From Qipengyuania sp. YIM B01966 (GTDB lineage Bacteria > Pseudomonadota > Alphaproteobacteria > Sphingomonadales > Sphingomonadaceae): a DNA stretch of 64,000 nucleotides. Shown piece by piece: positions 1-11,207 of the stretch. The stretch covers positions 1-64,000 of the forward strand of contig NZ_JADMNM010000006.1 of NCBI RefSeq assembly GCF_016461955.1, written 5' to 3'. Both the position numbers and the translations under genes were made by a program. The notes under the pieces are model-generated. The model had not been told where the DNA came from and ran no database searches. It saw nothing but the letters and a program-made list of their open reading frames with translations. The number at the start of each line of letters is the position of its first letter. Positions within the stretch are counted from its first letter, which is position 1.

Positions 1-510
1 CGCCAAATGTTCTGACGACGGACAAAAGCCGATGACCATGTTTACAAGACGAAGACCGTCGAGACCGGTTTCTTCGATCTGGAGGGCGCTGAGAACATTT
101 CTGCCGTTGTTTTTTCGAACGCTGGCACGATGGCGAAGTTCGACCGAATGGGTGTGGATGCGGGTTTCGCACCCGACGACCACCGCTACATGCGCATTGG
201 ATTTCGTCTCAATCCCGATCCGAATGCCGTAATCGGAACCCCGTTCAGCGAGGAAGTCGAAGCAGACAACGGCGAACGCTGGTCCGACGAGTTGCAGGTA
301 TTCCACAATCCGCGAGCCAAATTCCCGCTTCCTTTGGAGGCATTCGCAGGCGCAACCCAACACCAATTTGTAGACGGGCAGCATGTCTCTTACTCGAGCG
401 GCACGCCGGTACTCAGTTCGCAAACAATCATCATGCACTTGGTTAGCAGCGAAGAATTCGACGCCGCTTCATCTCAGGCTATGGCGGATGTCGAAAATAG
501 CAGAGATTAG
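1..510 (+). CDS. Partial protein of unknown family, probably frameshifted
   Basis: The reading frame ending at 510 is open back to a stop at 13-15, and the translated stretch before the first ATG (130) looks as protein-like as what follows, so the gene very likely begins left of the window. Frame 3 (from base 3) reads PNVLTTDK up to an A4 run at 24-27. Dropping one A joins it smoothly to the downstream frame (ADDHVYKTKT). This points to a one-base frameshift or a sequencing error. I do not recognise the family; a segment reading ISAVVFSNAGT is the most distinctive part. Base composition is clearly less GC-rich than the core genes to the right, like its neighbour at 629, so it probably belongs to the same accessory stretch. 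Confidence 0.5.
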
Positions 511-628: not shown

Positions 629-2791
629 ATGAAACCGTACACTCGATCCATCATAGACCTGTTCGACGGCAAGCGTCGCTATCTGATCCCACTTTACCAG
701 CGCCAGTACTCTTGGCGCGAGGACCCTCAGATCGCTCTGCTATGGGAAGACATCGAGCGCGCTGTCGAGCGGATCGAAACTGATCGCTCGGCGCTTGTCC
801 CGCACTTCATGGGCGCCATTGTCATCAACCAGGTCAAAACCTACGGCAAGCAGGTACAAGCCTATGAGGTAATTGACGGGCAGCAGCGCTTGACCACCTT
901 TCAACTGTTGTTGGCGGCGCTGCGCGACGTGGCGGCGGACAACGGCTCAAGCTACGCAGCCGAAGTGGGGAAGTACCTCTTGAATGACGGCGTCATGGAG
1001 GCACCTGAAGAGGAGCGGTACAAACTGTGGCCTTCGATCACGGATCGCCGCGCTTTTGTGAAGTTGATTGATCCTATCGCAGACCTCAACGCGATTGCAG
1101 GCCTAGCCGAAGATGACGAACTGGTCGGTAAGTTGGCAACCGTCGCATACAGTGCATTTCGACGGCGCATTCTCAATCTTGTCACCATTGGCGGCGGATA
1201 TCAGGAAGGGCGTCTCGAGATACTTTTCGAGGCCCTGAAAGAAGGCCTGGCGGTCGTCTCGATTGAACTCGAAGGCGGCGATGATCCTCAGACAATCTTC
1301 GAAACCCTGAACAGCCGGGGTGTGGCGCTCTCTCCCGCAGATTTGCTGCGAAATTTCATATTCCAGCGCGCAAAGAGCTTGGGGCAAAGCGATGGTTCGC
1401 TCAATGTCGACAAGCTTTACGAAAAGCACTGGCTTCCGTTGGATCGGCAGGTCTGGAGCCAGGAGGCCTCCCGTGGCCGCCAGAAGCGCACACGCCTGGA
1501 CTGGATGTTGACAGACCATCTCGCGATGCAAATTGGGGACATTGTTTCCATCGAGGGTCTGTTTGCCAACTACCGTAAGTGGATACTCAGCAACGCTCCG
1601 TTTCCCAGCGTAACCGAAGAACTGGAGTCGATCTCGGCTACCGCTGCCATTGAACAAAGGCTCTTCACACCGAAGGACGGCGATCCAGTTGGCAGATTTG
1701 GTCGAATGGCCGACGCCTTCGATGTTTCCACCGCGATGCCGCTGGCCATCTACCTTGCAACTGAGCCGACCGTGCTCCCCCGGCTCGGCGGAGCCTTCGA
1801 AGCTTTGGAAAGCTACATTCTGCGAAGGGATACCTGCGGTCTCACCACCAAGAACTATAATCGCTTCTTCGTGGCCCTGATCACCCGCCTACGCGAGTGC
1901 GACGGTGACAAGGTTGATGAGCTGATCTCGTACCTCTCGGGTCGCACTGCCGATCTCGACCGCTGGCCAGATGATGCCGAATGGCGGCGGAATTGGATCA
2001 TGCGCGAGCAGTACGCCAATGCGCGCCAGCCGCGCCTTCGCTATATTCTTGAAGGGATCGAGCGCGCCAAGCACACATCGTTGACCGAAGACATCCTGAT
2101 CCGATCTGCACTGACCATCGAGCATATCATGCCGCAGAAGTGGCAGACTGCTTGGCCTCTGCCTGGCATGGCAGGGCTGCGCGAAGAGGAATACGGGCCT
2201 GAACTCGCCAACTTGGTCCGTTCACGCAACAGCGCGGTCAATACGCTGGGCAACCTGACCCTCATGACCCAGGCGCTTAACTCCACCATTTCGAATGGAC
2301 CCATCGCCGGCAAGATAGCCGCAATCAAGGCCAACGCAGCGCTAGCGCTGAACCGCGAGCTGCACGGCTATGAGCAGTGGGACGAGGACTCCATACAGGA
2401 GCGGGGCGCAGCCCTGTTTGAAGTAGCTCGAACGATTTGGCTTGCGCCACAGCGTGCAGAGCTTCTCGGCATAGGGATGGGGGCGAATTCAGAGCGAAAT
2501 AACTTGCCGACGCCTTTCCCTCTCGACGGAACAAAGTGCCGATTTATCTACGCTGGGAATGAATATCAGGCATGCATCAAAGATGGGGGGCTCATCGTTG
2601 ATGGCTTCGACGGCAAGCAGGCGTCTTTCTCTGCGGCTTCTGTCGCAGTGACGGGGACCAGCCGTAATGGATGGAATGACTGGCACCTTCAGATGGATGA
2701 TGGCAGCTGGGTCCTAGCGAATGACTGGCGCAAGAAGCAGGTTTCGACCTCAGCTATGTCGACCGAGCCTAATGCAGGGAGCGCTGCCTGA
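629..2791 (+). CDS. DUF262-DUF1524 protein with RAMA-like C-terminus (putative modification-dependent nuclease)
   Basis: A 720-residue protein. The N-terminal DUF262 (ParB/Srx-like) domain shows YQRQYSW at residues 23-29 and IDGQQRLTT at 82-90, the NTP-binding motif of GmrS/SspE-type proteins. The C-terminal DUF1524 HNH-type nuclease shows TIEHIMPQ (E498, H499) and NTLGNLTLM (N538, N542). After it, roughly residues 635-713 read like a RAMA domain (DGGLIVDGFDG, then NGWNDWHLQ), a fold associated with restriction and adenine-methylase proteins. DUF262-DUF1524 proteins are known as type IV restriction (GmrSD) or phosphorothioate-dependent (SspE) defence nucleases; sensing of modified DNA here is inference. 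The gene is less GC-rich than the core. The start has an AGAAGG-like ribosome site 8 nt upstream. No obvious partner genes lie to the right. Confidence 0.85.
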   Translation: MKPYTRSIIDLFDGKRRYLIPLYQRQYSWREDPQIALLWEDIERAVERIETDRSALVPHFMGAIVINQVKTYGKQVQAYEVIDGQQRLTTFQLLLAALRDVAADNGSSYAAEVGKYLLNDGVMEAPEEERYKLWPSITDRRAFVKLIDPIADLNAIAGLAEDDELVGKLATVAYSAFRRRILNLVTIGGGYQEGRLEILFEALKEGLAVVSIELEGGDDPQTIFETLNSRGVALSPADLLRNFIFQRAKSLGQSDGSLNVDKLYEKHWLPLDRQVWSQEASRGRQKRTRLDWMLTDHLAMQIGDIVSIEGLFANYRKWILSNAPFPSVTEELESISATAAIEQRLFTPKDGDPVGRFGRMADAFDVSTAMPLAIYLATEPTVLPRLGGAFEALESYILRRDTCGLTTKNYNRFFVALITRLRECDGDKVDELISYLSGRTADLDRWPDDAEWRRNWIMREQYANARQPRLRYILEGIERAKHTSLTEDILIRSALTIEHIMPQKWQTAWPLPGMAGLREEEYGPELANLVRSRNSAVNTLGNLTLMTQALNSTISNGPIAGKIAAIKANAALALNRELHGYEQWDEDSIQERGAALFEVARTIWLAPQRAELLGIGMGANSERNNLPTPFPLDGTKCRFIYAGNEYQACIKDGGLIVDGFDGKQASFSAASVAVTGTSRNGWNDWHLQMDDGSWVLANDWRKKQVSTSAMSTEPNAGSAA

Positions 2792-3209: not shown

Positions 3210-3286
<77 letters not shown>

Positions 3287-9733: not shown

Positions 9734-11207
9734 GCCCGCATCTCCGCTGTTTCCCGGAAACGACACGCCGGGCCAGTCAGGCGCGCTGGTAGCGCCAAGC
9801 CGGCCCGGCGACAATTCCGAGGCGCTGTCGGTCTCCGAACTCGCCAATGCGCTGAAGCGCACGGTCGAGGACCGCTTCGGCGCGGTGCGGCTGCGCGGCG
9901 AATTGTCGGGCGTCAAGCGCGCCGCCTCTGGGCACCTTTACGCCTGCCTCAAGGACGAGAACGCGGTGATCGACGCGGTGATGTGGCGGACCGCCGCCCA
10001 GCGCCTCGCTTTCGTGCCCGAAGACGGGCTGGAGGTGATCGCCAGCGGCAAGGTAACGACCTATCCCGGCCGCTCGAAATACCAGATCGTGATCGACCGG
10101 CTGGAGGTCGCGGGCGAAGGGGCGCTGCTCGCGCTGCTCGAGAGAACCCGCCGCCGGCTGGAGGCCGAGGGGCTGTTTGCCGCCGAGCGCAAGCGGAAGC
10201 TGCCGTTTCTGCCGCGCACCATCGGGGTGGTGACCAGCCCGACCGGCGCGGTGATCCGCGATATTCTCCACCGGCTGGCCGACCGCTTTCCGAGCCATGT
10301 GATCGTCTGGCCGGTGCTGGTGCAAGGTCAGGGCGCGGCCGAACAGGTGGCGGCGGCGGTGCGCGGCTTCTCCGCGCTGGCCCCGGGCGGGCCCGTACCG
10401 CCCCCCGATCTTGTGATCGTCGCGCGCGGCGGCGGCTCGATCGAGGATCTTTGGAGCTTCAACGAAGAGGCGGTGGTCCGCGCGATTGCCGAATGCACCA
10501 TCCCGACGATTTGCGCGGTTGGCCACGAAACCGATACCAGCCTCGCCGACTATGCCGCCGACCGGCGCGCGCCGACGCCGACCGCCGCCGCCGAGATTGC
10601 CGTGCCGGTGCGCGCGGAACTGGCCGCAACGCTGGCCGATTTTGCCCGTCGCAAGCGGCGCTGTGCGCTCGCCCCGGTGGAACTCGGCCGCGAGCGGCTG
10701 GAGGCGCGGGCGCAGCGCCTGCCCCGCCCAGACGCGCTGTTCGCCGCGCAGGTGCAGAAACTAGATGAGCTGGGCGAGCGGCTGCGGCGGGGGCTGTCCG
10801 ACCGGGCAGCGCTCGCCCGCGCGGCGCTGCTGGCCGATTCGGCGCGGCTGTCGGCGCCGCTGCTGCGCTCGCGACTGGGGCAGGCGCAGCAGGCGCTCGC
10901 CGGACAGCGGCTGGACCCACGCGTGCTCGGCCGGCGGCTGACGCAGGCGCAGGAGCGGCTGGGCGCGCTCGGCCGATTGCACGCCAGCCTCGACTATCGC
11001 GCCCCGCTGGCGCGCGGTTATGCGCTGGTGCGCGGCGCTGATGGCCACGTTCGCCCGACACGCGCCGCCGCTGCGCACGACACGCGGCTGACGCTCGAAT
11101 TCGCGGACGGGACGCTGGCGGTGACCCCCGCCGGCGCTGCTGCCCAGCCTGTTCGCCGCACCCGCGCTGCCGCGCCCGTGCCGGGTCAGCAGGATTTGTT
11201 CGGCTAG
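9732..11207 (+). CDS. xseA: Exodeoxyribonuclease VII large subunit
   Basis: A 491-residue product. The N-terminal OB-fold (about residues 32-130) begins [16 protein letters not shown]. The catalytic domain includes [27 protein letters not shown] and [25 protein letters not shown]-type sequence with the GHETD motif at 264-268. A long helical, Arg/Gln-rich stalk and a C-terminal YARGYALVR-like segment complete the usual layout. ExoVII degrades single-stranded DNA with the small subunit XseB, which is not seen here. AAAGGA lies 6 nt before ATG 9732. This start overlaps the divergent purD start. Confidence 0.96.

Follow-up and report, generated by a model that had tools for sequence, protein, structure and literature searches.

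The window, a 64,000-nucleotide stretch of the Qipengyuania sp. YIM B01966 genome, codes near its left end for a GmrSD-family protein in which a DUF262 domain, a DUF1524 HNH nuclease domain and a C-terminal tail with a predicted RAMA fold follow each other in a single chain. We read this protein, with a probability of roughly 0.7, as a stand-alone, type IV-like GmrSD defence nuclease whose tethered RAMA-fold tail grips double-stranded DNA and either adds affinity or reads a mark. The gene and its parts are as follows:

629..2791, plus strand: 720-residue GmrSD-family protein (DUF262-DUF1524) with RAMA-fold tail, ATG start
653..1363, plus strand: DUF262 (GmrSD_N, PF03235), residues 9-245, Pfam E 2.7e-36
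875..889, plus strand: DGQQR motif of DUF262, residues 83-87 (D83-R87)
1964..2425, plus strand: DUF1524 (GmrSD_C, PF07510) HNH nuclease domain, residues 446-599, Pfam E 5.6e-25
2120..2134, plus strand: EHIMP (the EHxxP motif of DUF1524), residues 498-502; N542 and N551 also belong to this domain
2453..2512, plus strand: flexible linker, residues 609-628, pLDDT below 50 in the AlphaFold2 model
2504..2752, plus strand: RAMA-fold domain, residues about 626-708, delineated from predicted structure and conservation, with S666, S668 and W682 as putative DNA-backbone contacts

Both core domains pass their Pfam cut-offs with ease (126 bits against 33.2 for DUF262 and 88.3 against 23 for DUF1524), and the two signature motifs of the GmrSD family, DGQQR and D/EHxxP, are intact. 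The former is invariant in all 19 homologues, as are E498, H499, P502, N542 and N551; hence, the core looks functional from its sequence. The PADLOC model for type IV mREase_IV enzymes covers residues 1-604 (E 1.7e-79), and the only clear full-length structural matches of the predicted model are DndI, SspE and BrxU, with Z about 12-20. The type IV enzymes Eco94GmrSD and BrxU share the same pair of domains and the same types of motif, and most such enzymes end after DUF1524, although some are listed with a DUF4357 tail (PMC4619093). The phosphorothioate-sensing SspE and DndI likewise have the DUF262-DUF1524 architecture and are the best structural matches, but the window's genome differs from such systems in yielding no match to DndC (TIGR03183), and in the full-length structural comparison neither the SspE nor the DndI structure matches the RAMA tail. 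By analogy with other family members, for which NTP-stimulated cleavage of DNA containing modified cytosine is a defining activity, DUF262 would bind and hydrolyse NTP and thereby control the HNH domain, which would in turn nick or cut DNA.

The sequence-only reading had pointed to about 80 extra C-terminal residues resembling RAMA, and had placed them at 620-720. The resemblance is borne out and the span is close, with the folded part running from about 626 to 708. Profile comparisons with the RAMA and DUF4357 models do hit the tail, but below both cut-offs: DUF4357 (PF14267) reaches 23.3 of the required 38.4 bits (E 6e-5) over just 24 residues (665-688), and RAMA (PF18755) 12.3-16.2 of 35.2 bits, with an E-value of 0.16 for the full protein and 0.0099 for the tail alone. 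Given the unmet Pfam gathering score, we file the domain as RAMA-fold or RAMA-like rather than as a member of the Pfam RAMA family; it also differs from the DUF4357 tails of other GmrSD proteins in being a full RAMA-fold domain. A sequence search of the PDB with the tail returned chance matches only. The tail is nonetheless conserved in ten homologues (alignment A1), and five sister GmrSD proteins from Actinomycetota and Planctomycetota carry, in the same place, a RAMA domain that passes the Pfam cut-off at 44-61 bits. The profile of these sister domains matches that of the window-clade tails with 94.7% probability over 45 columns, and a RAMA profile (A2) picks up seven GmrSD proteins of the A1 clade, including the window's (E 3e-4).

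In the predicted structure, an AlphaFold2 model built on 19 homologues, the tail has a pLDDT of 81-90 at residues about 631-700. The full-length comparison (VIA) matches residues 626-708 to the RAMA domains of MPND (Z 10.2) and CcrM (Z 9.0), with the next row at 6.0; the domain on its own gives MPND at Z 9.8 and 9.6 and CcrM at 8.6 over 76-77 residues, with the next row at 5.8. Foldseek places the same three MPND and CcrM chains on top with probabilities of 0.98-1.00, but with weak E-values of 0.05-0.1. The rmsd to these chains is 2.2-2.8 over 76-77 residues at 12-18% identity. Thus, the tail of the modelled protein is a RAMA fold, in line with the resemblance noted in the sequence-only reading. 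It remains distinct from its best matches in low identity and in being fused to a nuclease, whereas those of CcrM and MPND are fused to a methylase or a deubiquitinase. One might still ask if the likeness arose by chance, as the sub-threshold Pfam scores would allow; the fold matches, the conservation and the true RAMA domains at the same place in the sister GmrSD proteins largely refute this, and we consider it highly improbable.

MPND, the best-studied RAMA domain, binds the backbone of double-stranded DNA; its S113, S115 and W135 contact the backbone, and mutating them nearly abolishes binding (PMC9963953). These residues correspond to S666, S668 and W682 in the window protein, in a mapping that runs through two profile alignments (with an A2 step and the chain numbering one higher). 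The two serines are kept in all ten relatives and the tryptophan in nine of the ten. This conservation of the contact residues predicts that the tail binds DNA but does not establish that it reads a modification. On its flexible linker the tail may thus grip double-stranded DNA via a serine-serine-tryptophan surface as in MPND, either adding affinity or recognising some specific modified base or context of phage DNA; in this way it would help to place the nuclease.

Further matches extend the range of RAMA-like domains. The tail profile of the window's clade picks up the RAMA domain of a CcrM-type methylase from a different genome (E 9e-4). It also finds the tail of a REase_MTES_1575 nuclease, DUF2924 proteins and small proteins whose N-terminus resembles SeqA_N. 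Together, these sequence matches suggest that RAMA, DUF4357 and the DUF2924 C-termini form one superfamily. The nuclease protein (L115:1501-2877, minus strand) is a fragment that combines REase_MTES_1575 with a domain resembling the GreA/GreB C-terminus, and its RAMA-like tail is closely similar to that of the window protein. The small proteins (L116:1282-1725 and L118:1291-1731) join an N-terminus that falls just below the Pfam cut-off for SeqA_N to a RAMA-like C-terminus, and the DUF2924 C-termini matching the RAMA-like profile include those at L121:1231-1689, L127:1219-1695 and similar loci.

A GmrSD protein with an extra C-terminal domain is itself an architecture type already reported in 2015 and is not new: Machnicka et al. 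list DUF4357 among the extra domains of GmrSD (PMC4619093). Other fusions of RAMA to a nuclease in one chain have also been noted, with Mrr and GIY-YIG (PMC11037411), and a further source names RAMA-HNH fusions as a subject of study (PMC12707154); these RAMA-Mrr-NTPase, GIY-YIG-RAMA and RAMA-HNH proteins use other nuclease or NTPase modules and are mentioned in those sources rather than characterised.

The gene lies in a mobile island, flanked by two further features:

13..510, plus strand: what remains of the C-terminal part of a PD-T7-1-like defence gene, at the start of the contig and just upstream of the GmrSD gene (PADLOC PD-T7-1, E 3.1e-28)
3210..3286, minus strand: tRNA-Arg(ccg) (ARAGORN), marking the right-hand limit of the low-GC stretch

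The sequence-only reading had the gene sitting alone in a low-GC stretch. The composition holds (55-58% GC against 63-73%), but the gene is not entirely alone, with the truncated PD-T7-1 gene just upstream. This remnant comprises positions 306-448 of 452 only and has an in-frame TGA at 13-15; the remaining part of the gene was not found anywhere in the genome assembly. Relatives carry incomplete copies of the 3' end of this tRNA several kilobases away from the intact gene (13 kb away in G019, for instance), which is what an integration site would show. Hence, tRNA-Arg(ccg) is likely to be the site at which the island integrated, and across the family it seems to act as a hotspot for integration. 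The contig starts at window position 1, and a search of this genome for another copy of the tRNA 3' end, which would mark the island's other border, found none; that border probably lies beyond the contig start.

Relatives occur near restriction-modification (R-M) and other defence genes, also on plasmids: type I R-M systems are found near L006, L008 and L010, L013 directly precedes a type III system, L083 stands beside a DUF499/DUF1156/DUF3780 system, and L007 beside DUF499, a DUF3780-like gene and a DUF1156 match. Our comparison of neighbourhoods found no gene common to most tail-bearing loci. This agrees with the proposed stand-alone character, and the dnd/ssp or methylase genes for which a survey of homologues had been suggested are not conserved neighbours. 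We rejected an obligatory dnd/ssp partner, as no Dnd or Ssp model is the best match for any of 20 neighbour proteins and the genome lacks a DndC match. A dedicated methylase partner was likewise rejected: methylase neighbours occur at five of 17 loci with the tail versus eight of 44 without it, which is no clear difference in a count that is crude and whose query set favours the tail-bearing group.

In the tree, the window's clade comprises 16 rows, with the tail present in nine, five proteins ending right after DUF1524, and two (L003 and L004) uncertain and, being near contig ends, not counted as natural tail-less forms. Overall, roughly one in three close homologues has no tail, so the tail is not needed for basic function. 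A single clade of tail-bearing proteins is rejected (p-AU 3.4e-5), and the same holds when just the Pseudomonadota rows are considered (p-AU 9e-8); the tail label requires four or more changes on branches with good support. Hence, the tail has been gained or lost repeatedly; one gain followed by several losses is also compatible with the tree. GmrSD proteins with an A2-type RAMA occur on four viral contigs (L147, L151, L152 and L154), and relatives with a match extending into the tail are found on plasmids of Lichenicola, Rhizobium, Martelella and Bartonella. In a relative on the Rhizobium tumorigenes plasmid pTi932 (L084:8001-11440), an IS5 transposase interrupts the gene, and the annotated GmrSD stops at 9839.

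What the tail contributes can be construed in several ways. It may clamp double-stranded DNA non-specifically, or serve in dimerisation or regulation, while specificity resides wholly in DUF262-DUF1524. This overlaps with the reading that we prefer and is a tenable, if tentative, alternative: the RAMA domains of CcrM and MPND contact only the backbone (PMC9963953), and the tail-less close homologues retain all motifs, but the repeated acquisition of the tail and the conservation of its surface point to selection for some role, which need not be reading. The sequence-only reading went further in joining the NTP-binding domain and the nuclease to a modification reader; the RAMA-fold fusion stands, and the tail is possibly such a reader. 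A general recognition of N6-methyladenine that directs cutting, like that of the winged-helix m6A-dependent enzymes, would fit the proposal of RAMA as an m6A reader and its occurrence with adenine methylases (PMC11037411, PMC9963953), as well as the fact that the only RAMA over the cut-off in the window's own genome sits in the CcrM-like methylase. However, a CcrM-like methylase is encoded by the host and by five of nine tail-bearing host genomes tested, and relatives often have adenine R-M systems of types I and III next to them, so that a nuclease set off by any m6A would cut self DNA; m6A binding is disputed even for MPND, which has no confirmed 6mA preference and whose affinity is not significantly raised by 6mA (PMC9963953). 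We therefore hold triggering by any m6A to be unlikely, and such an m6A-dependent nuclease to be a poor prospect; the target would then be some other mark or context, unless the tail serves as a clamp or as a sensor of self.

Self-recognition would have the tail sense the host's own modification, much as the DUF262 pocket does in SspE and DndI, so that the nuclease is held off or released from self DNA and attacks unmodified phage DNA. DndI, among the closest solved bodies, works in this way with phosphorothioate (PMC11662687), a CcrM is present in the host, and Y23 aligns with DndI Y25. Yet this position is generic, being Y or F across the 19 homologues; DndC is absent from the genome search, no methylase partner is conserved, and a CcrM-like gene was not found in four of the nine tail-bearing hosts tested (Betaproteobacteria or draft genomes). 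Accordingly, we regard self-recognition as improbable. For the stand-alone nuclease with a DNA-gripping tail, the order of the domains, the intact motifs, the RAMA fold of the predicted model, the conserved contact residues and the setting in a mobile island are observed; we infer nuclease activity, DNA binding, an anti-phage role and the target.

The close tail-less GmrSD relatives, which are 48-63% identical, offer a clean natural comparison for the role of RAMA in a nuclease; such a comparison bears on m6A reading by RAMA, which has been proposed but not confirmed. A more specific thought, and a long shot, is that the tail is a self-mark sensor that reads the CcrM-type adenine methylation of the host and restrains the nuclease. 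If true, a single gene would make up the whole system and would tell self from non-self by borrowing a housekeeping epigenetic mark.
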